Shown piece by piece: positions 1,120-30,060 of a stretch of 41,833 bases of DNA (positions are counted from its first letter, which is position 1; each line of letters starts with the position of its first letter). The notes under the pieces are model-generated. The model did not search any database. It saw only the letters and a program-made list of their open reading frames with translations, and was not told the origin of the DNA. The position numbers and the translations under genes were made by a program. The stretch spans positions 1 to 41,833 of the IMG/VR virus record IMGVR_UViG_3300005264_000014; one strand, 5' to 3'. The DNA is from a virus.

Positions 1120-3057
1120 ATGAAAAAGATAATCTTCATCTTCATCCTGTTACTTCCAGCCCTTTTATCTGGGGCTGATAACCTGGGGATCTGGGGGGAA
1201 AAGCTTGATCTTGATATTTCCCCAGGGGGGGATCTGTTCATTTCTTATTCCAGGGGGAATACTATTTATTTCAAATATCAGGAAGGGGGAATCTGGAAGC
1301 CTGAAAAAGTAGTTCAAGGATCTGATGGAAATTATGATTCAAGGTTTCCTTCAAGGCTGGCTGTTGATCAGGAAGGGAATGTTCATTTCAGCTTTGCTAA
1401 TAAATCCAGGAATAAGATTCTTTATAACAAGTTCATCCCTGGAACTGGCTGGGCTGGGCTGGAAGAAGTTCTGAAAGATAAAGATAATCAAGTTAATAAA
1501 TGGGATACACATAGAAATTCTATAAAGGTTAATGGATCAAGGAAAGTTATTATATGCGCTTCAACTGATCAAGCTGTTAAATGTAGGGGGAAAAATATAA
1601 ATGGAAAGTTCAGTTCCTTCCCTGATAAGCTGAAGGAAGATGATTATGAACCTAAGTATCAATTCCTGGGAAGTAACTTGAAGCTTCCTTATATGATCTG
1701 TTTGTATAGCTGGAAAGGTGTTCTTTATGGGAATGAATATAAGGGGAATAACTGGCTTCCTTCTTCTAACTTTACTGGGGACTGTTGTACAAATAATGGA
1801 TCAATCTTTATAGATGATCAGGGGAATATTTATGTATCCTGGATTGTATGGACTGATGAAGGGGAATTTTCAGATCTTCATTATATGGAAAATATAGGGG
1901 GGATCTGGAAACAGCCTGAAGTTATTATATCAGGTTATAATTATTTTGATTGCCCTTATAATTCTGAATGTATGTTTCCTGAAGTAGCTGTTACTTTAAA
2001 TGGAACAAGGATTATAGTTTACAGTTCAGGGGGGGGATCTTCTAAAGTTAAGATAGCTTATAAGAAGCCTGGATCTTCCTGGAAGAAGGAAACTTTATCA
2101 GGATCTTATTCTAATCATTCAGCTATAGCTGTTGAAGGGAATAAAGTTCATGTAGTTTATACAGGGAACAAGATCTTTCATGAAGCTGTAAATTTTGGAA
2201 CAGCTTCAGATCCTACAGCTACACCTTCCCCAGTTCCTTCCCCTACAGCTACACCTGAAGGGGATCTTTATGATCTTCCTATTTATACAGATCTTCTTCA
2301 GGGAAGTACATTAGGAATTGAAAGGGGAACAGGGAAGTTCCTTCCTGGATCTGGCTGGGCTTCAACTGGGGGAAATATACTTTATGATCTGGGGGAAGCT
2401 TCTGAAATGGGCTATTCTTTATTCTTAATAAATGAATGGGAAGCCCCAGCTTCAGGAACAGAAAAGAATCATATAGTATCAGGCTGGGAAGAAGAAGCCT
2501 TTAATCATCATAATCAAACAGGAAGCTTCTGGAATTTAAGAATAGGATCAAGATACAATCCTTTTAAGTTTCTAGCTTCCCCAGCTGGGCTTCTTTCCAG
2601 GAAGGAAATCAGGCTGGGAAATAATTCATTAGTTAATGATGGGGAAGAACACCTTTACAGATTTGAATGGAACAAGGGGAAGATTAGCTTTTTATTTGAT
2701 GGGGATCTTCTTCATACATGGAACTTCCCCAGGATGAAGATCAGATATATATTGATAGGGAAAGATGATCTTTATAACATAACAGATCCAGCCCCAGTAT
2801 TTCATAAAGTAGAAATAGGAAAGCTAGTTTATAGCCTTCCTGATCCTACAGCTACACCTTCCCCCACTTCAACAGCTACACCTTCCCCTGATCCTACTTC
2901 AACAGCTACACCTTCCCCTAGTCCTACAGCTACACCTTCCCCTGATCCTGATCCTGGGGATGATCCCCCTGTTCTTCCTTGTGGAAAGCTAGGGGCTGGC
3001 TTTGGGATGATCCTGGGCTTTATAGGCTTCTGTTATGCTGGAAGGAAAAGATCATGA
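1120..3057 (+). CDS. Secreted beta-propeller/lectin-like protein with C-terminal membrane anchor
   Basis: A 645-residue protein. An N-terminal Sec signal peptide (two Lys, then a run of Ile/Phe/Leu) has a likely cleavage site near residue 19 (SGA). Residues about 20-360 contain repeated 'DQEGNVHFSF' and 'IDDQGNIYVSW' type motifs typical of sialidase/BNR-like beta-propellers. A Pro/Thr/Ser linker (about 362-383) leads to a concanavalin-like domain (about 385-575, with 'YRFEWNKGKISFLFDG'). A second PTATPSP-rich linker follows. The C-terminus has a Cys near residue 621, a Gly/Phe-rich hydrophobic helix and a basic tail, GRKRS. That order (Cys, membrane helix, basic end) resembles tripartite CTERM sorting signals. 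It is not a normal virion component. It probably reaches the surface of the infected cell, as a moron or exclusion factor. The enzymatic or binding target is unknown. Confidence 0.75.
   Translation: MKKIIFIFILLLPALLSGADNLGIWGEKLDLDISPGGDLFISYSRGNTIYFKYQEGGIWKPEKVVQGSDGNYDSRFPSRLAVDQEGNVHFSFANKSRNKILYNKFIPGTGWAGLEEVLKDKDNQVNKWDTHRNSIKVNGSRKVIICASTDQAVKCRGKNINGKFSSFPDKLKEDDYEPKYQFLGSNLKLPYMICLYSWKGVLYGNEYKGNNWLPSSNFTGDCCTNNGSIFIDDQGNIYVSWIVWTDEGEFSDLHYMENIGGIWKQPEVIISGYNYFDCPYNSECMFPEVAVTLNGTRIIVYSSGGGSSKVKIAYKKPGSSWKKETLSGSYSNHSAIAVEGNKVHVVYTGNKIFHEAVNFGTASDPTATPSPVPSPTATPEGDLYDLPIYTDLLQGSTLGIERGTGKFLPGSGWASTGGNILYDLGEASEMGYSLFLINEWEAPASGTEKNHIVSGWEEEAFNHHNQTGSFWNLRIGSRYNPFKFLASPAGLLSRKEIRLGNNSLVNDGEEHLYRFEWNKGKISFLFDGDLLHTWNFPRMKIRYILIGKDDLYNITDPAPVFHKVEIGKLVYSLPDPTATPSPTSTATPSPDPTSTATPSPSPTATPSPDPDPGDDPPVLPCGKLGAGFGMILGFIGFCYAGRKRS
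2212..2958 (+). repeat. PTATPSP-coding degenerate repeats (two blocks)
   Basis: The unit CCTACAGCTACACCTTCCCC and close variants recur at 2212-2255 and again several times at 2845-2945, encoding Thr/Pro/Ser linkers on each side of the concanavalin-like domain. They are probably extended, possibly glycosylated wall- or surface-spanning spacers. Confidence 0.75.
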
Positions 3058-8235: not shown

Positions 8236-8330
8236 TCAGTAAAAATCAATAAAGTTCTTTTCTTCCTTCCTTGACAATCCCCACTTTATAGCCGATAATG
8301 TTACCATATAACCTTATTTAAGGGGGATTT
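8236..8330 (+). other. Intergenic leader of the head operon
   Basis: This 95-bp gap, one of the few in the genome, contains the promoter at 8271-8299 and a TAAGGGGGA ribosome site before the gene at 8331. No gene or terminator is seen in it. Confidence 0.7.
8271..8299 (+). promoter_or_regulatory. Sigma70-like promoter of the head operon
   Basis: A perfect -35 TTGACA (8271-8276), a 17-bp spacer and -10 GATAAT (8294-8299). It points into the gpW-portal-capsid operon, about 30 bp before its first start codon. Its near-consensus form does not require the Ogr-like activator encoded just upstream. Confidence 0.8.
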
Positions 8331-8543
8331 ATGGCTACATTAGATGAACAGATAACAGCCCTTGAAGATGAACTTATTCTTATAGCCCAGAATGGTCAAT
8401 CAATTCAATCAGAACATTATAAACATACAAAGGCTAAACTAGCTGATCTTATGAAGGCTAGATCTATTCTTAAATCTGAAGAAGCTAGATCAAACTTATC
8501 CCTTCAATCAAGATTCAATTATGTTATTCCCAGAAGGATTTAA
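8331..8543 (+). CDS. Head-tail joining protein, gpW-like
   Basis: A 70-residue, mostly helical protein with 'EHYKHTKAKLADLMKARSIL' in the middle. Size, helical content and position directly in front of the portal gene match lambda gpW, which plugs the filled head and provides the site for the tail connector. Sequence similarity is weak, so the call rests mainly on synteny. It is the first gene behind the promoter at 8271. Confidence 0.65.
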   Translation: MATLDEQITALEDELILIAQNGQSIQSEHYKHTKAKLADLMKARSILKSEEARSNLSLQSRFNYVIPRRI

Positions 8544-8545
8544 TT

Positions 8546-10105
8546 ATGGCTTCTATGGATATTCTTACAACTATCAGGAATTATATAAAGCCTTCTAATG
8601 GAAATGGAATAGTTAAAGCTTCTTCTAAATTTGGAAGGCACAATAAAAGGCTAGGGGCTACAGTTCAAGGAACTTTATCTAATCTAGTTACTTCAGCTGT
8701 TTCAAGCTGGCTTTCAGAATATGAAAAGAAAAGAACTAATGAAAGGGCTAACTGGCTGTTTCAAAATGATGCTGTTTCCAGGGGGATCATTAAAAGTTAT
8801 CCTGTTGAAGTTGTTAATATTGGATTAACACCTGTTCCGAAACCTATGTTAAGAATCCTGGGGAAAAGTTATGAATGGGGATCTGAAGCTGAAGAAGTTA
8901 TATTTGATTATTTTGAACTATGGGGCTTATCCCCTGATAACTATTCTGATGTTCAGGAAAGGCTGAACTTTTACATGCTTCAATCTTTAGCTGTTTTTCA
9001 GTGGGCTTTAAATGGGCTAGCTATATTTCAAGTAGCTTATAATGATGATCCTTCCCGCCCCTTGATGTTATCCCTTCTTCCTATATGTTCTTCCAGGGTA
9101 CAAACACCTTCAGATCTAGCTTATAGTTCTGATCTGGAAGTATATGATGGATTTGAACTTGATGAAGTAGGGAAGCCTATAGCTATTTATATTGTAAAGA
9201 ATGGGGATCTTCCCCCCACTTCTGATAACATGGATAGGATTGAAATTAAGAATAAGGAAACAGGCTTTCCTAATGTTCTTCTTATTTCTGATGTTGAAAA
9301 TATAGCTGAATACAAACAGGATTCAATTCTATCTTCCATGATTAAAACTTTAGTAGATTCACAAACCGCCTTTGATGCTACTGTTATTAAGTTTCTAGTT
9401 TCTAATCTATGGACTGTATTCATTGAAAATCAAACTTCCCTTCCTGATTTTAATCAATCTGATGAATGGGAAGATAGGGCTGTTCAAATGGAAATGGGAA
9501 CTATATTACAGGGGCTTCCTGGGGAAAAGGCTTCTGTTATGGCTTCAGAACATCCTGGGCCGAATTATGCTGATATGGTTAAAAGTATCTATGAAAGGCT
9601 GGGAACAGCTACAGGGAAGGGCTTTGAAAATCTTCTTCATTCCTATAATGCTTCCTATTCAGCTTCTAGGGCTAATATAGAAAATGCTGGAATGTATAAT
9701 GATGAAATCAGGAAGATGCTGAATAATAAGTTCAATCAGCCTGTTATGAATATCTTGATCTATGAAATGGCGTTACATAATCTTATTCCTGGGCTTCCCT
9801 TCTTTGAAGTTCAAAGGCTAAAGAATGAAGGGCTTCTTTATGCTTTAACTAAATGTAACTTCCTTCCCCCCCCTGAAAGACCTATTGACAAATATAAAAA
9901 TTCTAGGGCTGATACTGAACAGCTGAATAATCTTACAACTTCTTTAGCTGATATTTACGCTAAGAATAATCAGAACTATAAACAGAAACTAAGGGAAATA
10001 GCTTTAATAGAAAAAGAAAAGAAGGATCTGGAAGATCAATATGGGATCAGCTTCAATCCTGGATCTGAAGAACCTATTGAAGAAACTGCTACAAATGGGG
10101 ATTAA
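8546..10105 (+). CDS. Portal protein, lambda gpB family
   Basis: A 519-residue portal protein. The segment 'RANWLFQNDAVSRGIIKSYPVEVVNIGLTPVP' (about residues 67-99) is the hallmark opening of the lambda-type portal family (PF05136). It is followed by the 'LNGLAIFQVAY' and 'PLMLSLLPICSSRVQTP' strands and a C-terminal helical crown/barrel region with an acidic end. Twelve copies should form the DNA channel that docks the terminase. It is preceded by the gpW-like gene and followed by the protease/scaffold gene, the lambda W-B-C order apart from one small gene. Confidence 0.88.
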   Translation: MASMDILTTIRNYIKPSNGNGIVKASSKFGRHNKRLGATVQGTLSNLVTSAVSSWLSEYEKKRTNERANWLFQNDAVSRGIIKSYPVEVVNIGLTPVPKPMLRILGKSYEWGSEAEEVIFDYFELWGLSPDNYSDVQERLNFYMLQSLAVFQWALNGLAIFQVAYNDDPSRPLMLSLLPICSSRVQTPSDLAYSSDLEVYDGFELDEVGKPIAIYIVKNGDLPPTSDNMDRIEIKNKETGFPNVLLISDVENIAEYKQDSILSSMIKTLVDSQTAFDATVIKFLVSNLWTVFIENQTSLPDFNQSDEWEDRAVQMEMGTILQGLPGEKASVMASEHPGPNYADMVKSIYERLGTATGKGFENLLHSYNASYSASRANIENAGMYNDEIRKMLNNKFNQPVMNILIYEMALHNLIPGLPFFEVQRLKNEGLLYALTKCNFLPPPERPIDKYKNSRADTEQLNNLTTSLADIYAKNNQNYKQKLREIALIEKEKKDLEDQYGISFNPGSEEPIEETATNGD

Positions 10106-10107
10106 TC

Positions 10108-10293
10108 ATGAAGTTATCAGGCTGGAAATCTAAAACAGGATTCATCTTATTAATCCTGGGGATCATCATGAAGGGAACAGCTTCTTCCTTCCCTGATCTT
10201 TCTTCCCTGAATGAAGTGGGGGAAGCTTTGTATAAATCAGGAATGGGGCTGTTAGGAATTGGAATAGCCCATAAAATTGAAAAGAATAAGTAA
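10108..10293 (+). CDS. Small membrane protein between portal and protease
   Basis: A 61-residue protein with one clear hydrophobic helix (about residues 11-23, FILLILGIIM) and a weaker Gly-rich one near residues 43-55, ending in basic KIEKNK. It resembles small unknown membrane proteins often carried by phages, including holin-like ones. Position inside the head operon argues against a lysis role. Function unknown. Confidence 0.6.
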   Translation: MKLSGWKSKTGFILLILGIIMKGTASSFPDLSSLNEVGEALYKSGMGLLGIGIAHKIEKNK

Positions 10294-16273: not shown

Positions 16274-19200
16274 TTGAGTAATATTATTGATATTATAATA
16301 AGGGCTGATATTGAAGGGGAAGGGAATCTTAAGGATCTGAATAAGGGGCTAGGGAATATGGATCTTTCCATGAAGGGATTAACAACTTCCCTAGCTAAAG
16401 CTACAGCTTCTTTAGGGGCTTTTTATTTAAGCCTTCAGGGAATCAAAAGGGGCTTTACAGAATCAGTAAAATTATTTACTTCCTTTGATGATACTATGCG
16501 GGCTGTTCAAGCTGTTTCTGGGGCTACAGGTCAAGAATTCCAGAAACTAACTGATCTAGCTAAACAAATGGGGGAAGAAACAAGATTCACAGCTACAGAA
16601 TCAGCTGAAGCCTTAAAGATTCTAGCCCAGGCTGGGCTTGAAGCTTCTGAATCTATGGAAGCCCTTCCACAAGTTCTAGCCCTTTCAGCTTCTTCTGGGG
16701 CTGGGCTGGCTGAATCAACTTCTATTCTAACTAGAATAATGGCGGGTTATGGATTAACAGCTAATGAATTAGGTCATGTTAATGATGTTCTAGTTAAAAC
16801 TTTTACTTCTACTAATACAACTATAAATGATCTGGGGGAAACTTTTAAATATGTAGGGCCGTTAGGGAAGGCTTTAGGAATAGATATAGAAGAATTATCA
16901 GCTACTATAGGAATCCTGGGGAATGCTGGAATAGTAGGATCTAAAGCTGGAACAGATCTGAAGGCTATCCTAGTGGCGTTATCAGCCCCTACTAAAAAGG
17001 CTGGAAAGTTATTTAAAAAGTTAGGTGTTGATACTCAAGAGATGGGAATTGATTTAGCTGATTCAGCTTCAGCTTTAGAATCATTAGGTGTAACTGTTCT
17101 GGATAATCAAGGGAAAATGAAGCCCTTTGTAGATATTCTGGAAGAAGTATCTATAGGATTAGCAAAGATTCCAGAAGAAGGAAAAAGATCAGGGATAGCT
17201 ATGGAAATCTTTGGAAAAAGGGCTGGGCCGGCTATGCTGGCTTTAGTTGAACAGGGATCTGGGGCTATAGCTAAACTAAGAAAAGAAATAGATGAAGCTG
17301 GGGGGATAGGAATAAAAACAGCTGAAATAATGGAATCAGGATTAGGGGGATCTTTCAGAAGATTAAAATCTGTAGTTGAATCCCTGGGAATAAATTTTGC
17401 TTCTGAATTTGCGCCCGCCCTTCAGGAACTAACTGAAATAGCTATTGAATTTCTAGCTACTTTCAGAGATACAGCTTTGATCCAGCTGGGGGGATTAGTT
17501 TCTGATGTATTCACATTAGGGGGGGCTTTAAGTGAAGCTGAATCAACAGCCTGGAGTATTAATGAATCTTTCAAAGCTATAGCTTCAGTTATTGGATTAG
17601 TAAGAATAGGCTTACAAACAATAGCTTTAGGATTCAAGGAAGGAATAATAACTGTATTAGATGGAATAGTTACAGCTTTCCAGGCTATAGCTGAAGAAGC
17701 TTCAAAGATTCCCTTCCTGGGGGATAATATAACTAGAAGCTTGAAGGAATCAGCTGATCAGCTTCAGCTTATGAGTTATAACCTTGAACAACAGGTTATA
17801 GAAAATTTTTATGAATATGCTGATTCTGTTACTAAGATTAAAAATGATCTAGCTAAAATGTTTGAAGAAACAAATAAGGGGGGAAAAGAATCAGCTGAAA
17901 CTTATAAGGAAATAAAAAATCAAGTTGATGAACTGGGGAAGAAGTTAATAGATGGGAAAATAACACAGAAGGAATATAATGATACTGTTAAGATCTATGA
18001 ACAGGAAGCTAAAAAGGCTTTCAAGGCTGGATCAACTGAACTTAAAAAGATTACAAAGCTGTTACAGGTGTCAAAAGAAGAAACCACTAAGACCGCACAG
18101 GAAACTGATGTATATCAGAAAAGCATGAAGGAATTAGGAATTTCAGTTGATGAAGTTTCCCAGGGATTAACTGAAACAGGTCAAGCTTCAGTTGATGCTT
18201 TTAATATACTAGCTGAAGGATCAGCTAAAGTAGCTTCCAGAATGAAGGGAACTTCTGAACAAGTAGCTAGATTCCTGGAAGATGTTGAAAAGAAGGGCTT
18301 ACTAGCTGGGGATGCTTTAGTTCATGCGTTTGAAGAAGGGATTGACACAGCTAAAACAGTGGGGGATATTGAAGCCCTTGTTTCAGCTTTAAAGGATGCT
18401 AGGGAAGCTGGGGAAATAACTACTGTAGGGCTAGCTGATGGAATGGAATTAGCTAGGGATAAGGCTTCAGAACTGGCTTCCCAGGCTATAACTACTTCAA
18501 GTGATATAGGATCTTTAGCTAATATAATGAAAGCCATAAAGGAATCTTCCTTTGATTTTGGAAATGAACTTGAACAAAGTTTGATTCCTGAACTTTCAAA
18601 GCTTTCAACTATGGATCTAACTAAACTTCAGAATCAGCTGGATACTTTATTTGATCAAGGAATAGCTGATGCTTCAACTTTTGATAATGTTACTGATGCT
18701 ATAGCTTCAACTTTATCAGAAAAATTAGGTGTTTCAGCTAGGGATTTTGAAACTAATATAACTAGGGCTGTTTCAACTTCTGTAGCTGATCTGGAACTTC
18801 TATCTGAAACAGGAAAAGCTTCTGGGGAAGTTCTTCAGGAAGCCTTTCAGAACATAATAGATAAGGCTGAAACAGAAGAAGATTTTAATCATCTTACTGA
18901 AAAGCTTCAGGAATTTCAGGAACAAGGTGTTCTTTCAGCTGAACAAGTTAAAGAAGCTATGGGGGGGATAAGTGAAGCTGTAGGGGATATTTCCCCTAAT
19001 GTTGATGCAATATCTGAAGGGATGGATCAAGCTACTGTTTCAGCTGGGGAATTTACTGAAGGAATGATTCAATCCCAGGAACAGGCTGATGCTTATATTG
19101 AAAAACAGAATGAAGCTTTCCAGGATCTAAATGCTGGATTTGATGCTGGAACTGTTTCAGCTGATCAGCTTACTGAAGGAACTGATAAAATAACTGAAAA

Positions 19201-20095
19201 TATCAAACAGGCTGAAGAAGCTGCGTTTGATTTAGGGGATGCTGTTGAAGATGCTGGGGATACTTTATCAGCCCCAGTTCTAGTTCCCTGGCCGAGAGAT
19301 ATAGGAAGGGCTGTTGATGAAATAGGTGTTGATCTGAAAAGGCTTCAAGATGTTATCTTTACTGATCATTTAGATGAAATAAGTAAATATGGATCTGAAT
19401 ATGCTTTCAATATAAATAAGCTGTATGATAAAATGAGGCAAATTATAGGGAATACAGCTGATCAGATTGATGAAGTAAGGCTTCAAATGCAATACATGTC
19501 GGAATCTGGGAATGTTGATATAGATACTATTAACAGGATGATAGATGAAATAGAAGTTCTGGATGATGCTACACTGGATGAACTAAGGGGGGAAGTAGCT
19601 GATCTGGAAGATCAGATTGATTCAGCTAGGGAAACAGCTGAAGGCTTTGTTGAAGATTTTACAAGGGAACTTTTACAGCTTGAAGGGGATGCTTTAGAAC
19701 TTGAAAAACATGAATATGAAACAAGGAAGGCTGAACTGGAAGAACTTCTGGAAGGGGCTGTTGATGAAGCTACTAGAAGGGAACTTCAACAGGCTTTGAA
19801 ACTTCTGGAAGAACTTCATAGAAAGAAGCTTGAAGATATTGAAGCTGAAGAAGAAGCTAGAAGGGAATCAGCTGAAAGATCAGCTGAATATGAAGAAAAT
19901 CTTCTGGATAGGGAAGAAGGGGATATTGAACTTACTGATACTGGGGATATAAGAGAAGTAACTAATGTAGTAAATCAAGATATTAATGTTACTATTAATG
20001 CTCCGCATTCAGTTCATGAAGATTATGTTAGGGAAGATGTTGTTCCTATACTTCAGGAAATAGGCTTTGAAGCTACAGGGGGAAATAATCAATAA
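16274..20095 (+). CDS. Tail tape measure protein
   Basis: A 1273-residue protein starting at TTG 16274, directly after the frameshift product's stop, with AAGGAA upstream. Residues about 75-250 match the TP901-1-type tape measure core: 'FDDTMRAVQAVSGATGQEFQKLTDLAKQMG', 'TEALKILAQAGL'-like repeats and 'GYGLTANELGHVNDVLVKTF'. A hydrophobic region follows at about 440-480. The rest is long alpha-helical repeats ('...GEALVHAFEEGID...'), ending in a Glu/Arg-rich coiled coil. It sets tail length and is probably injected with the DNA. Confidence 0.9.
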   Translation: MSNIIDIIIRADIEGEGNLKDLNKGLGNMDLSMKGLTTSLAKATASLGAFYLSLQGIKRGFTESVKLFTSFDDTMRAVQAVSGATGQEFQKLTDLAKQMGEETRFTATESAEALKILAQAGLEASESMEALPQVLALSASSGAGLAESTSILTRIMAGYGLTANELGHVNDVLVKTFTSTNTTINDLGETFKYVGPLGKALGIDIEELSATIGILGNAGIVGSKAGTDLKAILVALSAPTKKAGKLFKKLGVDTQEMGIDLADSASALESLGVTVLDNQGKMKPFVDILEEVSIGLAKIPEEGKRSGIAMEIFGKRAGPAMLALVEQGSGAIAKLRKEIDEAGGIGIKTAEIMESGLGGSFRRLKSVVESLGINFASEFAPALQELTEIAIEFLATFRDTALIQLGGLVSDVFTLGGALSEAESTAWSINESFKAIASVIGLVRIGLQTIALGFKEGIITVLDGIVTAFQAIAEEASKIPFLGDNITRSLKESADQLQLMSYNLEQQVIENFYEYADSVTKIKNDLAKMFEETNKGGKESAETYKEIKNQVDELGKKLIDGKITQKEYNDTVKIYEQEAKKAFKAGSTELKKITKLLQVSKEETTKTAQETDVYQKSMKELGISVDEVSQGLTETGQASVDAFNILAEGSAKVASRMKGTSEQVARFLEDVEKKGLLAGDALVHAFEEGIDTAKTVGDIEALVSALKDAREAGEITTVGLADGMELARDKASELASQAITTSSDIGSLANIMKAIKESSFDFGNELEQSLIPELSKLSTMDLTKLQNQLDTLFDQGIADASTFDNVTDAIASTLSEKLGVSARDFETNITRAVSTSVADLELLSETGKASGEVLQEAFQNIIDKAETEEDFNHLTEKLQEFQEQGVLSAEQVKEAMGGISEAVGDISPNVDAISEGMDQATVSAGEFTEGMIQSQEQADAYIEKQNEAFQDLNAGFDAGTVSADQLTEGTDKITENIKQAEEAAFDLGDAVEDAGDTLSAPVLVPWPRDIGRAVDEIGVDLKRLQDVIFTDHLDEISKYGSEYAFNINKLYDKMRQIIGNTADQIDEVRLQMQYMSESGNVDIDTINRMIDEIEVLDDATLDELRGEVADLEDQIDSARETAEGFVEDFTRELLQLEGDALELEKHEYETRKAELEELLEGAVDEATRRELQQALKLLEELHRKKLEDIEAEEEARRESAERSAEYEENLLDREEGDIELTDTGDIREVTNVVNQDINVTINAPHSVHEDYVREDVVPILQEIGFEATGGNNQ

Positions 20096-23000
20096 TGACT
20101 TGTACAAGATTCCTATACAATGATAAAAATCTTTTAAAGGATGCTGATGTTATAGCTTCTGATATGAAGCCTTCTGAAAATGCTGTAACTATTACAGAAA
20201 TAATCAGAACTGGAACTGGGGCTGTAAGGCTGGGGGGAACTTTTACAGGGGATCAAGATACTGTTTACAGAATAAAGATAGTTACTGATGTTTCTTCACA
20301 AGTAACTATTTCAGAAATAGAATTTCAAGGAATAGGGAATGGGGATCTTACTGAAGCTTTAGCTACTGGGCTTGATGCACAGGATCTTGAAGTTGAACTT
20401 ATAGATCTGGGAACTGAAACAACTTATGCTTTCCTTCCTTTATATGGGGGAATTTTAAGGGCTGTTGTAACTGGGCCGATAGGAAATAATCTTTTCTTAT
20501 CAACTAATACTTCAGGGATAACTAGAACTGATCTTCCCTTTACTGTATTCAATGATATGGGGGAAGATGATAATCAATTTGAAGGATCTGAATATTTCTA
20601 TGGGGATGATTACTGTAAACCTTTGGATGATTTTGGGAATGTTGATCCTACAACTAAAAGAATCAGCTTTGGTACTGATCCCCAGGTGTATAAGATGTAT
20701 AGGGAATGGACTGGCTACAAGTGGATTTATCATATAACACCTTCAATAGTTAGACCTGTTACAGCTGGAACTATTGTTAAGGAAGTTACTGGATCTTATT
20801 CGGCTACTGTTTCTGATGGAATAGATACTGATTCCTTCCCTGGAATAATAACTAGATATGATTTTCTTAATGCTGTTCTAACTACAGCTTCCCTTGTAAC
20901 TTATGAAGGGGCTGTTTCCCAGGATTACACACCTGAAGGAATGGCTACTATAGATTTTGATATTGTTACTGAACCTTTTAACCTTCCTATAATTCCTGAA
21001 GGATCAATATATGTTGAAGAAATTAAATCAACAGATCTTCAGCTTTCAATAGATCCTGATCATCCTACTGAAAAAGTAACTATAGAATGTATCAATAATG
21101 ATTCTGTAACTAATGAAGAATGGTCTGTTAGGGGGGAAGTATCAGGATTAAGGGCTATTAGTGCAACTACTAATATTTTATTTACTGATCCCCTGGGCTA
21201 TGTAGCTTTTAAGATTCCCCCCAGGGAAGCCCCTTCAACTGATGTAGGATTTAGGATTGTAGGAATTGATTATGCTTCCAGGGGCGGGGGGGAATATAAA
21301 CCGCCTATATGTCCTGATCTTTTAACTTTAGGAACTGGGGCTTTACCTAAAACAATAACTTTAGAATATAAAGAAAGGGATGAACTAGCTGATGATTGTG
21401 AATGTGAAGGAACAAGTTATGAAGGACAAGTAAAGCCTTCATGTTTAGGATATTCAGGAAGCTTTTCTGAAGGAGGTGGAATAGTGGAAATTGAAATAAA
21501 AAAGCGTCTTTATGAATTATATAAATGGCGTAATGAATTTATTCAAACTAATGTTTCTGATCTAACTGATTTTACTGGATTTAATGCTGATGCTGGATTT
21601 TACTTCCGTTATGTTGTGGGCTTTGGTTATGATAGGGCTGATATTGATATGTGTAAAAGATTAACAGGTGTATTTCATTCAGCTTTAAATCAGATTCAGG
21701 AACATGAAACAACAGGAATCCAGGAATGGGAATCTGTTAAAACTTATGAAATAGGGAATATAGTTAGGGCTACTAATCCTTTAACTAATTTTTATTTCAA
21801 ATGTACTAAAGATGGGAATTCTGATATTGGGGAACCGCCCTGGGCTACTATTCCTGATATTGGGGATATTATTCAGGATGCAACTACTGAATGGGTTAAT
21901 ATGGGGGAAATTCCTTTAGGGTTATGGGATCAAAGATTTGCTGAAATGAAACTTGATCTTGTTATAATTGAAGGAAGGGAAGGGGGAAAATTCTGGCGCA
22001 ATATGAATCTATATGATACTATTGATTTAATCCATTCAGAAGAATATAAGCCTAATCATGTATATGTTTCACCTGATGATCATATATTTCCTATAGGAAC
22101 TTTACCGCCTGGGTGGCCGTTAGAACCTGAAACACCTATTAATCATCCTTATGTTATTACAACAGTTATAGGGGGAACTTCCCCAGCTTTACCAGAACCT
22201 AACTTTGATCTATTTCCCTATAATACTCATATAGCATTAGGGCCGGACACCTGGGAAGTTATGAAAGTAAAATATGATTATGCTACAAGCTTATCTAAAA
22301 TGTTTGATGCTTTTTCTAGTCATGCTGAATATTTCCTGGATCAATATAGGGTTGAAATGGATAGAATCCTAGTAGCTTCAGATCTTGAACCGATATACCC
22401 TTTTGAATTAGCTGGCATAGGTAGCAGTATTGAAGGCGGTCTATGCTGGCAAGATAAAGAAGCTGAATCCCATTACTGGGAAGTTGAAAATGGGGCTAGG
22501 CTTCCAGCCTTCAATAATGTTGTATATCATTCCTGTATTAATACTTTTGATGAAGATACAGGGGAAGAAGTAGTTGTTCCTACTTTTGAATATGCCTTTG
22601 TTATTAAAGTTGAATGTCCTGTTCATTTAAAAGTAGGGGATAAGATTACACTTCAGATAACAGGGAACTTTAAAACTTATGAAGTAGGGGATAATATTCA
22701 GATCCCTGTTATCTTTTCTAGTCCCCAGGGATTAGCTGGGGGACAAATAGGGAATAATCTTTTAACTTGGCGGGTTTCTGGAACTGTAGATTCATTTATT
22801 GATTATGTATTTGATAAGGATTCCCCTGTTCCCTATTCTGATAATGGGCTTGAATTTCTTATAACACCTGGAACAATCCCCTTTGAATTAACTTCAGCTG
22901 GAACTAAGTTCCTGTTCAGTATTGAATCAGGTCAATTCCAGTATCAAAGGGAATCTCAACCGTGGTCTGGAAATCTGAATATTAATACAGGTGGTGTTCC

Positions 23001-23778
23001 TATAATTGATGGGCTTGAAGCTTTATTCTATCCAGGTCCGAAGCCCAGCTTTCAGATAGATGATCTTTATACTTTCCTAGCTGAACAGAAATATAGCCCC
23101 TTTCATACTATGGATTTTGATGAAGAATTCTTTTCCTGGAATGGATCAACAGTAACTTTAACTTATTATTTTGGGGCTTTAGGGAAGAAGTTTGATTCCT
23201 TTGCTTTATGGCATTCCTTACCTGAAGGAAGTACTGTTCAATTCTATGGATCTAATAATGGAACTTCCTGGGATCTTTTAGATACTTTAGCCTATAATGA
23301 AGATCTGATTGTTTCCTTCCTATCTAGCCCAGTAAATTATAGATGGGTTAGATTATATCTTGATAATGCTACTGATGGGAAGCTTTATCATGTTCATGTT
23401 TCTGAAGCCTGGGATATTTCAGTTCAGCCCCAGAAAGTTGAAATCAATGATAGGTATGCTATGACTTCTGGGGCTGGATATTCAAGATCTGGAAGATACA
23501 TAGGAAGGGGAACTGGGGGAACAGTGGGCTGGAATAGGTGGCTGAAGTTTGAAGATGTAAAAAATATTAAGTCAATGATAAGATACTTGAAGGAAAATAA
23601 TGAAGAACCTTGTATTTTTATTCCTAATCTTTCTTATCCTGATAGATCTTATCTTGTAAAGATTGATACTAATAAATATAATATTACTGATAGATATAAG
23701 TTTGTTCCAGCTGATGATACTAAAGAACCGCAGAATAGATATTCTGTTGAACTTCCACTTGAAGGAATTATTTTATGA
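20095..23778 (+). CDS. Giant tail-tip protein with carbohydrate-binding-like modules
   Basis: A 1227-residue beta-rich protein downstream of the tape measure, the usual place of distal tail and tip proteins. About residues 540-600 read like a carbohydrate-binding insert of the type W-x-YEIGNIV ... YFKCTKDG ... EPPW ... EWVNMG. About residues 1020-1110 ('FDSFALWHSLPEGSTVQFYGSNNGTSW' and following) look like an F5/8C discoidin-like domain. 'CECEG' and 'CLGYSG' near residues 445-460 may form a small metal or disulfide knot. Likely the main host-contact scaffold at the tail tip. The exact family is not recognised. Confidence 0.65.
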   Translation: MTCTRFLYNDKNLLKDADVIASDMKPSENAVTITEIIRTGTGAVRLGGTFTGDQDTVYRIKIVTDVSSQVTISEIEFQGIGNGDLTEALATGLDAQDLEVELIDLGTETTYAFLPLYGGILRAVVTGPIGNNLFLSTNTSGITRTDLPFTVFNDMGEDDNQFEGSEYFYGDDYCKPLDDFGNVDPTTKRISFGTDPQVYKMYREWTGYKWIYHITPSIVRPVTAGTIVKEVTGSYSATVSDGIDTDSFPGIITRYDFLNAVLTTASLVTYEGAVSQDYTPEGMATIDFDIVTEPFNLPIIPEGSIYVEEIKSTDLQLSIDPDHPTEKVTIECINNDSVTNEEWSVRGEVSGLRAISATTNILFTDPLGYVAFKIPPREAPSTDVGFRIVGIDYASRGGGEYKPPICPDLLTLGTGALPKTITLEYKERDELADDCECEGTSYEGQVKPSCLGYSGSFSEGGGIVEIEIKKRLYELYKWRNEFIQTNVSDLTDFTGFNADAGFYFRYVVGFGYDRADIDMCKRLTGVFHSALNQIQEHETTGIQEWESVKTYEIGNIVRATNPLTNFYFKCTKDGNSDIGEPPWATIPDIGDIIQDATTEWVNMGEIPLGLWDQRFAEMKLDLVIIEGREGGKFWRNMNLYDTIDLIHSEEYKPNHVYVSPDDHIFPIGTLPPGWPLEPETPINHPYVITTVIGGTSPALPEPNFDLFPYNTHIALGPDTWEVMKVKYDYATSLSKMFDAFSSHAEYFLDQYRVEMDRILVASDLEPIYPFELAGIGSSIEGGLCWQDKEAESHYWEVENGARLPAFNNVVYHSCINTFDEDTGEEVVVPTFEYAFVIKVECPVHLKVGDKITLQITGNFKTYEVGDNIQIPVIFSSPQGLAGGQIGNNLLTWRVSGTVDSFIDYVFDKDSPVPYSDNGLEFLITPGTIPFELTSAGTKFLFSIESGQFQYQRESQPWSGNLNINTGGVPIIDGLEALFYPGPKPSFQIDDLYTFLAEQKYSPFHTMDFDEEFFSWNGSTVTLTYYFGALGKKFDSFALWHSLPEGSTVQFYGSNNGTSWDLLDTLAYNEDLIVSFLSSPVNYRWVRLYLDNATDGKLYHVHVSEAWDISVQPQKVEINDRYAMTSGAGYSRSGRYIGRGTGGTVGWNRWLKFEDVKNIKSMIRYLKENNEEPCIFIPNLSYPDRSYLVKIDTNKYNITDRYKFVPADDTKEPQNRYSVELPLEGIIL

Positions 23779-24155
23779 TAAAAGAAGAAAAAGAAATAAT
23801 AAATAAACTTCTTAAGGAACTGGATATTATCAGGAAGGAAGAAGATTTTAAAGTATATGGATTTGGGGCTGGCTTTAAATATAATGAATGGTATAAGGAT
23901 CTGGATCAGTTCATTTCTAGCCCTACTATTTCAATGGAAGCTTTGCTTATCTCGAGACATTTAAAAGTATTAGCTGTTAGTTATGCTTTAGTTCAGGGGA
24001 ATGATCTAACATATATAAATCATGTTAGGAATCTTATTGATGAAGGGCTTGATCCTGAACTGAAGAAGAAGATTGAAAAGAATAAGAAACCTGAAAAGAA
24101 GAAAACAACTAAGAAGAAAGCCCCTAAAAAGAAACCTATAAAGAAAAAGAAATGA
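23775..24155 (+). CDS. Small tail-associated protein with poly-Lys tail
   Basis: A 126-residue helical protein. The first 95 residues are ordinary in composition; the last 30 are almost all Lys, Pro and Thr, a flexible cationic tail that could bind DNA, membrane or acidic partner proteins. It overlaps both neighbours by ATGA, so it belongs to the tail-tip translational unit. Function unknown. Confidence 0.6.
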   Translation: MIKEEKEIINKLLKELDIIRKEEDFKVYGFGAGFKYNEWYKDLDQFISSPTISMEALLISRHLKVLAVSYALVQGNDLTYINHVRNLIDEGLDPELKKKIEKNKKPEKKKTTKKKAPKKKPIKKKK

Positions 24156-24493
24156 TATGGATTATAATACATTCAGATCCCCCCAGGATCTTTTACTTAA
24201 AGAAAGATGATTATTCATTCTTTGATAATAAATATCTTTCATATAGGATTCTAGCTAATGTTGAAACAATTAGAAATGATGTTGATGTTTCTATTGATGG
24301 ATCTGGGGAAAATGCTTCTACTAAAGTAAGCTTTCATAATGCTAAAAATCAATTCTATGATCTGTATTCTGAAGATCCCCCACTTCTGGAAGAAGCTGTT
24401 ATCTATAAAGATGATTGGATAAGGCTGTTCAGGGGCTATATAACAGATCTATCCCTGGGGGAATCCACAGCTTCTATAACTATAAAGGCTTAA
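24152..24493 (+). CDS. Tail hub-like protein, N-terminal part
   Basis: A 113-residue beta-strand-rich protein with 'GENASTKVSFHNAKNQFYDLYSEDPPLL' and 'DDWIRLFRGYITDLSLGESTASITIKA', a pattern seen at the N-terminus of baseplate hub/tail-tip proteins. The next gene starts 4 bp after its stop in another frame and reads like the continuation. The pair may be a naturally split hub. Confidence 0.55.
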   Translation: MIWIIIHSDPPRIFYLKKDDYSFFDNKYLSYRILANVETIRNDVDVSIDGSGENASTKVSFHNAKNQFYDLYSEDPPLLEEAVIYKDDWIRLFRGYITDLSLGESTASITIKA

Positions 24494-24497
24494 TGAT

Positions 24498-25562
24498 ATG
24501 GCTGTATTCCCATTAAATGAAAAGATTAACTTAAGAAACAGCTCGGAATGGCCGTCTTATGAAGCTGTAGAAACACTGATTCAAGCTTATGGGACTGTTA
24601 CTATTAAGCCTGTTAGATATGACAACAGGGGCTTTATATGGTTTCTAGCTGATCATCCTATAACAAATGTTCATGAAGTAAGGGATGAAGAAGGGGATAT
24701 AGGCTTTACATGGTATAATGAAATTGATCACCTGGGGAATCAATGTTCTTTCATGGAAACAGATTCTTCCATGAAGGGGATAGAATTCCAGGCTACTATT
24801 GAAGGGAAAAAACATCCTGTAACAGCTAATACTTTAATAAAAGAACCTTCTGATGTTATTACTGATATATTCAATCTGAATCCTAATGTTCAGTTCCAGG
24901 AATCTGATATTGATATTTATAAAAGGGATTGTCAAGAACTGGGGATTCAAATAGATGGAATCCTGGGGGATCATGATCAGAGTACACAATATTACTTCAA
25001 TCAAATTAAGGCTTCTACTGGATCTGTTTGGGGGGGGGCTTTGAAAAACATCTTCAGGATCTTCCCCAGGATAGAAGTTCCTGAAGCTGAATACATAGCT
25101 AAGAATCTTACTAAAAAGAATCTTTATACTGTTAATGCTGTTTCAAATTATAATGATATAAAAACAATCTTAAGGATCAACTATAACTTCAATCATGTTA
25201 CAGGTGTTCCCCAGGAAGTTCTTCAGCTGGAATCTGTTGAAGGTGTTAAAAAATATAGATTAACTAAAGAAGTAAACTTTTACTGGATCCGATCAGGAAG
25301 ATTAGCCTGGAAGATAGGGGAAAGAATTCTGAAGTTCTGGGCTAGAAAAAAATGGAAAGTAACTTTTTCTTCCCAGGAAGAACTTATTTCTGGGGAATAT
25401 TCTAACTTTAATCATCCTGGGATTCCTGGGGATCAGGCTGATTATATGGTATTAAAATCTAATGTTAAGCCCACTGGAACAGGGGGGGATTATTCAATAT
25501 ATATTCCTGTAGGGACTATTCCAGAAGTAGCTATAACTTATCAATCTGAATCCTTTGATTAA
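24498..25562 (+). CDS. Tail hub-like protein, C-terminal part
   Basis: A 354-residue protein. 'TIKPVRYDNRGFIWFLADHPITNVHEVRDEEG' followed by several beta-strands and 'FWARKKWKVTFSSQEELISGEYSNFNHPGIPG' is consistent with a tail-tip hub domain. The ATG lies 4 bp downstream of the preceding stop with only a weak AAAGG site, suggesting termination-reinitiation coupling. No peptidase motif seen. Confidence 0.55.
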   Translation: MAVFPLNEKINLRNSSEWPSYEAVETLIQAYGTVTIKPVRYDNRGFIWFLADHPITNVHEVRDEEGDIGFTWYNEIDHLGNQCSFMETDSSMKGIEFQATIEGKKHPVTANTLIKEPSDVITDIFNLNPNVQFQESDIDIYKRDCQELGIQIDGILGDHDQSTQYYFNQIKASTGSVWGGALKNIFRIFPRIEVPEAEYIAKNLTKKNLYTVNAVSNYNDIKTILRINYNFNHVTGVPQEVLQLESVEGVKKYRLTKEVNFYWIRSGRLAWKIGERILKFWARKKWKVTFSSQEELISGEYSNFNHPGIPGDQADYMVLKSNVKPTGTGGDYSIYIPVGTIPEVAITYQSESFD

Positions 25563-25572
25563 GGGGGAACTA

Positions 25573-26013
25573 ATGCCGAACTTTACAAATGATGGAACTA
25601 AAAGGCTTCATGTTATTGGAATTGATGGAAAGAAAATAACTGTTGAACCTGGGGATGCTTTTGAATCCTATTTAAGATGTGAAAAGATTTTTCCTGATGT
25701 TACTTTAGTAGGGGAAGATCCTTATCTGGAAGAAGTATTTAGGCTTATTGAACTTACTTTTACAATAGCTGAAACACAAGTTATAACATTAACTGATGAA
25801 GAAGTTCTGGAAGCTAAAAGAATTGTTATGTATGCTGGGGGATCAGCCTTTACAGCTGAAATCAGGCTGAATCATGCTTCAGCTTCTATCAGAAGGAAGA
25901 TAGATATTGATAGGGGCTTATTCGGTGTTACTATTGAATTGGATAGACAAGTTCAAACTATTAGAATTACTTCTAATGGGGCTGGAACTTTACATGCTTA
26001 TCCTGAAAGATAG
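25573..26013 (+). CDS. Small beta-rich tail-tip protein
   Basis: A 146-residue protein. ATG 25573 has TTAAGGGGGA upstream and is preferred to TTG 25555, which overlaps the previous stop region. The N-terminal 50 residues resemble a short knob ('KRLHVIGIDGKKITVEPGD') found in phage baseplate-associated proteins. The rest is alternating charged strands. No known family. Followed by the fibre genes. Confidence 0.6.
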   Translation: MPNFTNDGTKRLHVIGIDGKKITVEPGDAFESYLRCEKIFPDVTLVGEDPYLEEVFRLIELTFTIAETQVITLTDEEVLEAKRIVMYAGGSAFTAEIRLNHASASIRRKIDIDRGLFGVTIELDRQVQTIRITSNGAGTLHAYPER

Positions 26014-26022
26014 GGGGAACTA

Positions 26023-28386
26023 ATGAAAAAGATCTTAATACTTTTAATGATAATCTTAATTCTTCCTTCCCTGTTATTAGCCCAGGATCATACTGGAAGA
26101 AGGCACACTGAAGATCATACTGGCTTTCCTGGGGGGGGAACTTTAACTTTTGATAAAGTTTGTGGATTAAGGGAAAATAGCATTCCCTTTGCTGATGCTA
26201 CTGGCTGTTTAGCTGAAGAAAATTCTGATTTTTATTATGATTATTCAACTAATGGTTTCTATGTATCAGGAATTATAACTGGGGGATCACAGGTAAGGGC
26301 TGAAGATGGGGGGGATACCGCCCCTACTTTTTCTTTCACAAGTGATATTGATACTGGAATGTATCTTCATGCTGTTAATACATTAGGATTTTCAACTGTA
26401 GGATCTATGAAGATGATAATAGCCCCTACTTATATTGAAGCTGGGCTTCCATTTAGGGGGGCTGATGGATCATATACTGTTCCTTCTTATACCTTCATAA
26501 ATGATACTAATACAGGCTTCTATAGTTCTTCAGCTGATGTTCTGGGAATATCAACTAAAGGAACTGAAGTAGCTTTATTTGGGGCTGGGGGGGAATTCTA
26601 TTCAAGATTTGGGATTATCCTGGATGATAATACAACTGATAGCCCAGGGATTGATCTTATATCTGGATCTAATAATGATACATGGAACATATATAATAAA
26701 GATGATGCTACAGCTGGGGATTCTGATCTTTATGTAGTTGCACCTAATAACAAAAATTCAGCCCAGGTTATCTTTCAAGGATCTGATACTAAAACATTCT
26801 GTAGTATAGGGGCTGGCGGTCAAGGCTTCTTCAGAACTGGAATTATATGTGGTGAAGCTTCAACTGAAGGAACTGTTTCCTTGAACAGAACTAGCTATGA
26901 AGTTCTTTTAAGACCGCCTGTAACTTTATCAGCTGATTATCATTTCTATTTCCCCCCTAATGATGGGAACAATAATGAAGTTCTTACAACTGATGGGAAT
27001 GGACATACAACTTTTGAAAAGCTGGATGGGGATAATCTAGGCTTTACTGATGATAGTTATTTATATCTTAATACAGCTGGAACTGTAGGGATCAGATATA
27101 ATAGTTCAGGTTATCTTGAAATTAATGAAGATCTTGTTCCTTCTTCTACTTATGATCTGGGAACTGATGCTAATAGATGGGGGGATTTATATCTTTCAGG
27201 ATCTTCTTTACATTTAGGATCTTCTGGGGATGAAGTAGAAATAGGATATAATACAGCTTCAGATTATGTTTCAATTAATCAGGCTGTAGCTATTAACTAT
27301 TCTGGGGCTGATGGAATCCTTACTGTTGATAATCCTACTTCTGGAACTTGGAATCCTACAGGGGCTTTTTATCAAACTGTTACTTCCGATGATGGGGGGG
27401 ATTATAATACTATTTATGTAGCTATGGAAGGGGCTGTAACTACAACTGGAAGCTTGATAGGAATTGATGTTTCAACTAATAATCAGGCTACTTTTACTAC
27501 ACCTAACATTTATTCAGTAAAGGGATCAGCTACTAATAACGGAACTGTTTCAACTAATATGTATGGGGGATACTTTACAGCTTCAGGAACAGCTACACAA
27601 ACAGTAGGAATCTTTGGATCAGCTACAGGGGGAAGTTCTAACTGGGCTGGGTACTTTAATCAAGGTGATGTTTTTATAGCTAACAATCTAAATATGACTT
27701 CTGATGATTTTATATATTTTGATTCAGCTGGAACAAAGGGCTTCAGTTATGATTCAACTGATACAAGGCTTGAAGCTAATGTTGATATTTATTCTAATAG
27801 TTCTTTAGAAATAGGAACAGCTACTAATTATTTTGAAGTTTCTAATTCTGGATCAGTTACACTTTATGGAACTGCTAAAGTAACTAAACAAATTGATAGG
27901 TACGCTTATAATATGGTACCCGTTTCTGGAACTTTTAATTCTGTTGTATGTAATACAGCTGGATCAGTTACTATTGATAGATTAGGATATATGAGAAGCT
28001 TTGATAAAAATGTTGAACATGCTATGGCGTTTACTATGGTTATTCCTACTGATTATGAAGATGGATCTGATTTTAAAATTCATTTACACTGGACTTCATC
28101 TGAAACTACTGGCGGTGTTAGATGGGCTATAGGTGTTAGGCATGTAGCAACAGGGGAAGATTATACACAAACAGAAACATATTATGGCGTTACTGGATCA
28201 GCCCCTAGTACTACTTATTATAGGGAATCTGATGAAGTAACTATTTCAGGATCAGGCGTTGTACATGATGAAGATACACAGATTGTAATATTTAGGGATA
28301 CAGGACATGGCGGGGATGATATTAATGGGGATTGTTATATTTCAAATGTAACTATAGAATACACTTCTAATAAACTGGGGGAATAA
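26023..28386 (+). CDS. Tail fibre-like protein with N-terminal signal peptide
   Basis: A 787-residue protein. Residues 1-21 form a textbook Sec signal peptide (MKKILILLM..., cleavage likely after LLLAQ or LLLA). The body has fibre-type repeats: 'PTFSFTSDIDTGMYLHAVNTLGFST' and the related 'PSYTFINDTNTGFYSSSADVLGIST', then 'SSTYDLGTDANRWGDLYLSGSSLHLGS' and Gly/Thr-rich beta strands. A distinct C-terminal domain begins near residue 625 ('GYMRSFDKNVEHAMAFTMVI') and may bind the receptor. Fibres normally fold in the cytoplasm, so an export signal is unexpected. It may be a displayed decoy or exclusion protein, or the helix may be an anchor. Confidence 0.75.
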   Translation: MKKILILLMIILILPSLLLAQDHTGRRHTEDHTGFPGGGTLTFDKVCGLRENSIPFADATGCLAEENSDFYYDYSTNGFYVSGIITGGSQVRAEDGGDTAPTFSFTSDIDTGMYLHAVNTLGFSTVGSMKMIIAPTYIEAGLPFRGADGSYTVPSYTFINDTNTGFYSSSADVLGISTKGTEVALFGAGGEFYSRFGIILDDNTTDSPGIDLISGSNNDTWNIYNKDDATAGDSDLYVVAPNNKNSAQVIFQGSDTKTFCSIGAGGQGFFRTGIICGEASTEGTVSLNRTSYEVLLRPPVTLSADYHFYFPPNDGNNNEVLTTDGNGHTTFEKLDGDNLGFTDDSYLYLNTAGTVGIRYNSSGYLEINEDLVPSSTYDLGTDANRWGDLYLSGSSLHLGSSGDEVEIGYNTASDYVSINQAVAINYSGADGILTVDNPTSGTWNPTGAFYQTVTSDDGGDYNTIYVAMEGAVTTTGSLIGIDVSTNNQATFTTPNIYSVKGSATNNGTVSTNMYGGYFTASGTATQTVGIFGSATGGSSNWAGYFNQGDVFIANNLNMTSDDFIYFDSAGTKGFSYDSTDTRLEANVDIYSNSSLEIGTATNYFEVSNSGSVTLYGTAKVTKQIDRYAYNMVPVSGTFNSVVCNTAGSVTIDRLGYMRSFDKNVEHAMAFTMVIPTDYEDGSDFKIHLHWTSSETTGGVRWAIGVRHVATGEDYTQTETYYGVTGSAPSTTYYRESDEVTISGSGVVHDEDTQIVIFRDTGHGGDDINGDCYISNVTIEYTSNKLGE

Positions 28387-28388
28387 AC

Positions 28389-29093
28389 ATGAAGAAGATT
28401 ATTTTTATTATAATTTTGTTTTTATTTGTTAGCTATGCTACAGCCCAAACAGTTCAGAAACTTGTTCCAATAATAAAACAGGCTTGGGCTGGGGAAACTA
28501 TTGATATAATGCAACTTCAAGATCCTGAAGCTAATCCAGTTTTAAGGGTTACTTATGAAGGGAATCTTGTTCTTCCTATAGGAAATGTAACAACTTCAGG
28601 AAAACAGATTGAAATAGCTAATACTTCTATTCCTGGGGCTTCTGATGATCTTTATGGAATGAAAATTGATTATACTGGAATAGATCTTGATAATGATCCT
28701 GATCTTTATGGGGAATATATAGCCCTTCCTGGAACTTATGGATCTGGAACTGAAGCTGGGCTTTCAGTTAATGGGGATGGAAGAACAGCTATTCTAGCTT
28801 CTGATTTTGAAGCTGGATACTTTTCTGATGGAACTAGATATTTTAGGGCTTGTACATGGAACAGTTCTTTTCAAGCTGATGGGCTGGGGATATTAAATAA
28901 TAACTATCAAATGAATGTTGATGTTAATGATGTTTCTAATCCCCCTACTGATGCTGAACTTGATTCTATTTATGGATCTGTTAATGATGGATTTACAGCT
29001 TATATAGATGATAATGGGGAAGGATCTAACTTCTATCAAGTTGTTTATAGGAATTCAGCTTGGTATATATTTACAGGAACTAAAGCTTCATGA
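28389..29093 (+). CDS. Second fibre-like protein with signal peptide
   Basis: A 234-residue protein with an N-terminal Sec signal (MKKIIFIIILFLFVSYATAQ, cleavage after ATA or TAQ). The rest ('DPEANPVLRVTYEGNLVLPIGNVTTSGKQIEIAN', 'DLYGEYIALPG', 'DDNGEGSNFYQVVYRNSAWYIFTG') is the beta-rich style of phage tail fibre tips. It starts 3 bp after the larger fibre gene ends, which suggests the two form one complex or pathway. Export, if real, would place both at the host surface or periplasm. Confidence 0.7.
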   Translation: MKKIIFIIILFLFVSYATAQTVQKLVPIIKQAWAGETIDIMQLQDPEANPVLRVTYEGNLVLPIGNVTTSGKQIEIANTSIPGASDDLYGMKIDYTGIDLDNDPDLYGEYIALPGTYGSGTEAGLSVNGDGRTAILASDFEAGYFSDGTRYFRACTWNSSFQADGLGILNNNYQMNVDVNDVSNPPTDAELDSIYGSVNDGFTAYIDDNGEGSNFYQVVYRNSAWYIFTGTKAS

Positions 29094-29112: not shown

Positions 29113-29406
29113 ATGTTTTCTTTATTTTCAAAGGGCTGTTCTGAAGTTCCAGGATCAGCCCCTAAAAAAAAAGATCTGAATAAATCTGATTCCCTTGATG
29201 TTCTGAAAGCCCTTACTGAAGGACTGATAGAAAAAGAAAATGAAATCAGGAAGGAAAGGGATGAAGCTAAGAAGCTGATCAGATCCAGGATCATCCTTCA
29301 TCTTGATCCAGTTGAAGGGAAGATTATAGATGTTAATGAAAGGGCTGAAAGATATTTTGAAAAAGCTGAAGAAGAACTTTTAGGGAAGAAAGTTATACTA
29401 ACATGA
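29113..29406 (+). CDS. Coiled-coil protein ending in a PAS fragment
   Basis: A 97-residue protein. ATG 29113 follows AAAGGGGA; an earlier in-frame ATG (29008) lies inside the fibre gene. Residues about 22-55 form a charged helix. Residues about 58-95, 'RIILHLDPVEGKIIDVNERAERYFEKAEEELLGKKV', match the first half of a PAS domain (the 'GkIidvNeaaeelfGyseeEllGk' signature) but the sheet is never completed. It overlaps the holin-like gene (ATGA). Possibly a remnant captured from a host sensor, or a minimal helix-hairpin module. Role unknown. Confidence 0.6.
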   Translation: MFSLFSKGCSEVPGSAPKKKDLNKSDSLDVLKALTEGLIEKENEIRKERDEAKKLIRSRIILHLDPVEGKIIDVNERAERYFEKAEEELLGKKVILT

Positions 29407-29630
29407 AAGAACAGGAAAAAGACGGCTGGCCGGAATGGTCAAGATTTGTATTGAAGGAACTGGAAAGGCTTAATAGTTGTCAAGCTGATATATATAAGAA
29501 GATCAATCATATATCAGTTGATATAGCTATGTTGAAGGTTAAAAGTGGAATCTGGGGAAGCATAGGGGCTTTAATTCCTATCATTGTTTTTATAATTTAT
29601 CAGATCTTCAAAGGAACAGGAACACCTTAA
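29403..29630 (+). CDS. Holin-like protein, XhlA-type
   Basis: A 75-residue protein with a soluble N-terminal helix ('RFVLKELERLNSCQADIYKKINHISVDIAML') and one C-terminal membrane helix (about residues 50-68, GIWGSIGALIPIIVFIIYQI). The layout matches XhlA/hemolysin-type holin accessory proteins. It lies immediately before the endolysin gene, so a role in membrane permeabilisation for lysis is likely. Confidence 0.7.
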   Translation: MKEQEKDGWPEWSRFVLKELERLNSCQADIYKKINHISVDIAMLKVKSGIWGSIGALIPIIVFIIYQIFKGTGTP

Positions 29631-29631
29631 T

Positions 29632-30060
29632 ATGATTCCCTTATGGCTGAAGATAGCCTTCCAGGAACTTAATAGCTTTATAGCTGAAGAACCTGGGGAT
29701 GAAGATAATCCTAGAATAATAGAATATCTTTCAAGGGTATTCCCTGATAATCAATATCTTCATGATTCTGTTCCCTGGTGTTCAGCCTTTATTGAATTCT
29801 GTTTACAGGAATCAGGTATTATAGGAACTAGATCAGCTTCAGCTAGATCCTGGGCTTCCTGGGAAGAAGAAGATCCTGAAGGGCTTCCTGGATCAATAGC
29901 TGTATTCTGGCGGGAAGATCCTGATAGCTGGAAAGGTCATGTAGGATTCCTGATATGTAAGGATGATCAATCCCTGTTCATCCTGGGGGGAAATCAGAAT
30001 AATGCTGTTACTATCAAGGAATTTTCTTATGAAAGATTATTAACAATTAGAAAGATCTAG
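29632..30060 (+). CDS. Endolysin, TIGR02594/NlpC-P60-like amidase or peptidase
   Basis: A 142-residue cell-wall enzyme without signal peptide. Motifs in order: PLWLKIAFQEL at the start, DNPRIIEYL (25-33), VPWCSAF with catalytic Cys50, 'TRSASARSW', PGSIAVFWR, GHVGF with catalytic His103, and LGGNQ (118-122). These define the TIGR02594 family of Cys/His peptidoglycan hydrolases. The neighbouring holin-like gene should release it at the end of infection. No spanin genes are visible. Confidence 0.88.
   Translation: MIPLWLKIAFQELNSFIAEEPGDEDNPRIIEYLSRVFPDNQYLHDSVPWCSAFIEFCLQESGIIGTRSASARSWASWEEEDPEGLPGSIAVFWREDPDSWKGHVGFLICKDDQSLFILGGNQNNAVTIKEFSYERLLTIRKI

Follow-up and report, generated by a model that had tools for sequence, protein, structure and literature searches.

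Fibre-like proteins with predicted Sec signal peptides in a metagenomic phage, suggesting that some phages may export fibres before fitting them to the particle

Two adjacent genes for fibre-like proteins, here called P1 and P2, occupy the usual fibre slot between the tail-tip and lysis genes of the viral record IMGVR_UViG_3300005264_000014, which was analyzed as a single stretch of 41,833 nucleotides (the window). The proteins begin with predicted Sec signal peptides, as does a third protein encoded elsewhere in the window. The relevant features are the following:

1120..3057, plus strand: third signal-peptide protein, with a weak BNR-like propeller, linkers rich in TPSP and, near the C-terminus, a hydrophobic segment that ends AGRKRS
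16274..26013, plus strand: tail module upstream of P1, with the tape measure (Pfam PhageMin_Tail, 3.4e-49) and tail-tip genes, none of which has a signal peptide
26023..28386, plus strand: P1, fibre-like, 787 aa, Sec signal peptide at residues 1-20 with cleavage predicted between LLLA and QD; matches a tail fiber PHROG at 1e-9
26023..26082, plus strand: signal peptide of P1, MKKILILLMIILILPSLLLA, followed by QDHTG; lacks a lipobox cysteine
27880..28383, plus strand: C-terminal tip domain of P1, matching (tblastn 6e-21; 34% identity) a fibre without signal peptide from a 634-kb phage
28389..29093, plus strand: P2, fibre-like, 234 aa, Sec signal peptide at residues 1-19 with cleavage predicted between ATA and QT
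28389..28445, plus strand: signal peptide of P2, MKKIIFIIILFLFVSYATA, followed by QTVQK
28908..29090, plus strand: C-terminal fibre-tip domain of P2, NPPTDAELD...FYQVV...W..F...KA, present in 27 viral loci with or without a signal peptide
29403..30060, plus strand: lysis genes downstream of P2, encoding a one-TM holin-like protein and a CHAP endolysin

Both P1 and P2 display the basic n-region, the hydrophobic core of 10-15 residues and the small residues at -3/-1 of type I Sec signal peptides, with an acceptable Leu at -3 in P1 and a canonical AxA motif in P2. In each gene no other start codon stands between the upstream in-frame stop and the ATG. Barring a translation start far downstream within the gene, the hydrophobic segment is therefore the real N-terminus. 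The mean hydropathy of the h-region reaches 3.9-4.0 in P1, P2 and the 1120-3057 protein, and is at most 3.5 at the start of every other window ORF. Under a strict rule based on our own heuristic scoring (an n-region with two basic and no acidic residues, a hydrophobic core, and the -3/-1 rule), these three were the only proteins retained among the 55 window ORFs; the same rule retained 9 of 200,000 composition-matched random N-termini and, of 9,530 segments taken from inside window proteins, none. The original prediction had described an export signal made of MKK, a hydrophobic run and AQ on both fibre-like proteins; its coordinates proved exact, and the assignment of these N-termini as Sec export signals is well supported at the level of sequence. 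No cysteine lies near the predicted cleavage site of either protein, and a superinfection-exclusion lipoprotein of the Cor or Llp type was ruled out by the absent lipobox and the wrong size. P1 contains six cysteines (residues 47, 62, 260, 276, 643 and 771); their even count would be compatible with disulphide bonding in an oxidising compartment.

Homology to fibre shafts or tips was found for both proteins. The repeats of P1 give weak matches to cyanophage fibres (E-values of 0.02 or worse), and its last ~150 residues are the counterpart of the tip in an ordinary fibre, L003:5125-6486, of the 634-kb phage LR745206.1. An alignment-free AlphaFold model of this tip is all-beta and of low confidence (pLDDT 54.5, pTM 0.57), and carbohydrate-binding modules and phage tail proteins are among its fold matches, which are only suggestive. 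P2 shares 46% identity with a fibre-like protein of a 205-kb phage (L002:5626-6720, in IMGVR_UViG_3300017991_000002), which lacks a signal peptide and instead has a soluble N-terminal domain of ~124 residues at the place of the P2 signal peptide. These two ordinary fibres resemble P1 and P2 in their homologous tips and genomic role but differ in having a soluble cytoplasmic N-terminal domain, whereas P1 and P2 have a signal peptide. Since the same tips also occur on fibres free of signal peptides, the signal peptide stands in for an ordinary N-terminus. The tail-fibre repeats originally claimed for both proteins are confirmed for P1 alone; P2 has no repeats, and shows a shaft-type motif together with its tip domain.

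Behind the signal peptide of P1 or P2 no N-terminal tail-attachment domain is recognisable, and P2 lacks the 124-aa domain of its L002 relative. Searches of viral contigs returned no direct relative for either P1 or the tail-tip gene, and none of P2 were found among annotated phages. NCBIfam yielded nothing useful, and no solved structure was matched by sequence for P1, the P2 family or the 1120-3057 protein. The structure model of P2 is weak (pTM 0.35), and its fold search gave no match at 1e-3.

The genes are tightly packed: 9 bp separate P1 from the previous stop, 2 bp separate P1 from P2, and 19 bp separate P2 from the next ORF. Promoter-like sites in the P1/P2 region are not above chance (25, versus 25.4 in shuffled sequences). 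Together, the packing and the promoter count imply that P1 and P2 are probably late genes co-expressed with the tail and lysis genes. No other fibre candidate was found among the larger proteins searched in the record, which may be incomplete. Between the fibre and lysis genes sits a PAS-like protein of 97 aa (29113-29406; Pfam PAS, 0.0013); likewise, an annotated PAS-domain protein adjoins the glycoside hydrolase of Cellulophaga phage phi14:2.

A scan with the P2 family recovered the same tip domain in the 27 viral loci listed above, most of which have an ordinary N-terminus on the tip-bearing protein. This protein starts with a signal peptide in L005 and L006 (near-identical loci), L009, L015 and L024. 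In L002, the gene directly after the P2 relative, at 7185-10004, encodes a signal peptide, repeats in common with P1 (6e-10) and a P2 tip (48%). Signal-peptide fibre genes often occur in runs: L009 has three, L015 two and L005 as many as four. Nearly all signal-peptide relatives have Q directly after the cleavage site. Checking for signal peptides on fibres elsewhere, as had been proposed, thus showed that fibre-like genes of unrelated phages encode them too, in no fewer than five further metagenomic loci (L005/L006, L009, L015, L024 and L002) as well as in Cellulophaga phages. Adjoining the signal-peptide fibre gene of the 205-kb phage is another gene for a signal-peptide protein (L002:10023-11048), with weak similarity to the Spherulin4 family (2.4e-4). 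A P2-type tip also occurs at L031:8924-10255, in a contig binned as Candidatus Nitrosotalea; the N-terminus and length of its fibre-like ORF equal those of the viral contig L020, so this contig is probably viral as well.

The closest evidence from virions comes from cultured Cellulophaga phages, whose GenBank records annotate proteins with "experimental MS/MS proteomics analysis." For instance, the four phi10:1 genes behind the tail-tip genes (gp091-094) are all MS/MS-marked and all encode signal peptides. Similarly, gp101-104 of phi19:1 and gp085-087 of phi18:3 are MS/MS-marked as structural and have signal peptides throughout, so that 11 of 11 marked distal tail proteins in these phages start with a Sec signal peptide; the remaining MS-marked head and tail proteins examined in the three phages all lack one. 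The gp093-like proteins, pectate-lyase spikes, are 100% identical across phages at residues 1-45, 97% at residues 46-80 and 34-53% beyond residue 118, while the gp094-like proteins are 85-93% identical at residues 1-45 and then 18-30%. A nearly invariant signal peptide and first mature residues with swapped bodies is, judging from these alignments, what a conserved module for virion attachment would show if it sat just behind an export signal and carried receptor-binding bodies that can be exchanged. Homologues of the spike body in phi14:2 (crAss-like) and phi4:1, at 44-49% identity, have soluble N-termini and lack a signal peptide; phi4:1 gp057 passes the signal-peptide rule but resembles a membrane anchor.

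Like P1 and P2, a run of two in the window, the distal tail proteins of phi10:1, phi19:1 and phi18:3 are encoded by runs of adjacent genes past the tail-tip genes and combine type I Sec signal peptides with fibre or spike modules. They differ in that they were detected in virions and belong to phages of flavobacterial hosts without Shine-Dalgarno use, whereas P1 and P2 are known from metagenomic sequence. Because P1 and P2 show no detectable similarity to gp091-094 (no BLASTP match at E<=0.001), the virion evidence applies to them by analogy of design and position, and the claim concerns a mode of working, not family membership. The arrangement is not general even in Bacteroidota phages, since the fibre-region genes of B40-8 and 11b encode no signal peptide.

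Shine-Dalgarno motifs precede 73% of window genes (29% in the control), compared with 17% of Cellulophaga phage genes (33% in the control). A flavobacterial host for the window phage is therefore unsupported; the host is probably not flavobacterial, and the arrangement would then cross host groups. The closest portal and terminase relatives, from Fusobacterium, Faecalibacterium and Paenibacillus phages, are only 24-27% identical and do not identify the host.

Considering these observations, we propose that P1 and P2 are the distal tail fibres of the phage, or a fibre and its tip. Made late, they would pass through the host Sec machinery and lose their signal peptide on the way. Folding and oligomerisation would take place beyond the cytoplasm, and the fibres would attach to tails as the cell lyses or thereafter. 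By analogy with the Cellulophaga proteins, we give an even chance to this route for P1 and P2, from Sec export to attachment to virions outside the cytoplasm. Assembly onto virions after export was one of several options originally put forward, and it fits best because 11 signal-peptide proteins, analogues of P1 and P2, were detected by MS/MS in Cellulophaga virions. Besides the lack of sequence similarity to the Cellulophaga proteins and the signal-peptide-free fibre genes of B40-8 and 11b, two points weigh against docking: outer-membrane vesicles or secreted protein can contaminate virion preparations and so appear in their MS/MS results, and neither P1 nor P2 has a recognisable tail-docking domain behind its signal peptide.

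The lack of an obvious docking domain and the signal peptides themselves would also suit proteins that are exported but never join the virion, and that instead stay at the host surface or are released, to act as adhesins, decoys or maskers of receptors. The third exported protein with its C-terminal hydrophobic anchor, and the Spherulin4-like signal-peptide gene that comes after a signal-peptide fibre gene in L002, point in the same direction. Nevertheless, such a role would leave the phage without fibres; it also sits poorly with the packing of P1 and P2 in the tail-lysis run, where promoter-like signal is not above chance, and with the detection of counterparts of the same design in Cellulophaga virions. 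We consider it unlikely, though the most serious of the alternatives. Host coating and receptor masking, which the original prediction had also offered, found no positive evidence, and an early role in exclusion is hard to square with the tight packing into the late tail-lysis run.

If the hydrophobic N-terminus were an uncleaved anchor holding a cytoplasmic fibre in the tail tip, this would also explain, without export, why the Cellulophaga counterparts were detected in virions. However, the N-termini have every element of a cleavable signal peptide, the -3/-1 motif among them, and Q follows the cleavage site in nearly all relatives. An N-terminus of KK and 15 hydrophobic residues is normally caught by SRP/Sec, and the homologous spikes of phi14:2 and phi4:1 have ordinary soluble N-termini, which makes an uncleaved anchor rather improbable. 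Very improbable is the chance capture of P1 and P2 beside the tail module as cargo genes for secreted host-type adhesins: similar repeats do occur on bacterial secreted proteins, but the relatives stem from phage fibre loci, the sole genome match is the virus-like contig in an archaeal MAG, and several phages have the arrangement in the same place.

The recurrence of such signals, together with the virion detection of the Cellulophaga proteins, suggests that some phages export fibres before fitting them to the particle. In its broadest form, which we hold tentatively and at somewhat below an even chance, a class of tailed phages from several host groups would send receptor-binding fibres through Sec, fold them in the periplasm or outside the cell, and add them to otherwise finished particles during or after lysis via a conserved mature N-terminal adaptor.

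Known systems offer partial parallels. The phage-encoded proteins Lom of lambda, Llp of T5 and Cor of phi80 are, like P1 and P2, exported and encoded close to receptor-binding tail fibre genes; they are, however, small outer-membrane proteins or lipoproteins and not virion fibres, whereas P1 and P2 are larger, have no lipobox and contain fibre domains. The coat proteins pIII and pVIII of filamentous phages are virion proteins made with Sec signal peptides, as proposed for P1 and P2, but their phages are filamentous and extruded through the membrane, while the window phage is tailed and of a kind assembled in the cytoplasm. To our knowledge, the tails of tailed phages are regarded as assembled entirely in the cytoplasm. 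Open-licence PMC papers yielded no description of tailed-phage fibres with signal peptides, and subscription journals or preprints may hold one. Signal peptides go unmentioned in papers dealing with these Cellulophaga phages or their relatives (PMC8776804, PMC11946311, PMC13288928). The rumen Bacteroides phages Brb01 and Brb02 are reported to encode signal peptides, and no link to fibres was noted there (PMC5723332).

Were fibres exported and attached outside the cytoplasm, a particle could acquire fibres of other phages from the same or neighbouring cells. Disulphides and other modifications made in the envelope could be added to such fibres, and unattached ones could affect host surfaces while the cell has not yet lysed. 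The cultured Cellulophaga strains make the export idea testable now; a proteomic hint is already present in the GenBank notes of their phages, and no discussion of it was found in open-licence PMC papers.

The third exported protein was also part of the original prediction, which placed it at 1120. It has a signal peptide (N-terminus MKKIIFIFILLLPALLSGA followed by DNLG), and its C-terminal hydrophobic segment runs into a basic tail; segment and tail (CGKLGAGFGMILGFIGFCYAGRKRS) resemble a surface-sorting signal. The gene lies far from the tail genes. Elsewhere in the window, a 61-aa protein with a strong hydrophobic segment is encoded at 10108-10293, between the portal gene and the gene at 10303. 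Genes for an FkbM-type methyltransferase, a ParB-like protein and a TET-associated glycosyltransferase (TAGT, 2.9e-9) stand in a row at 3191-5299 and possibly represent a DNA hypermodification set.
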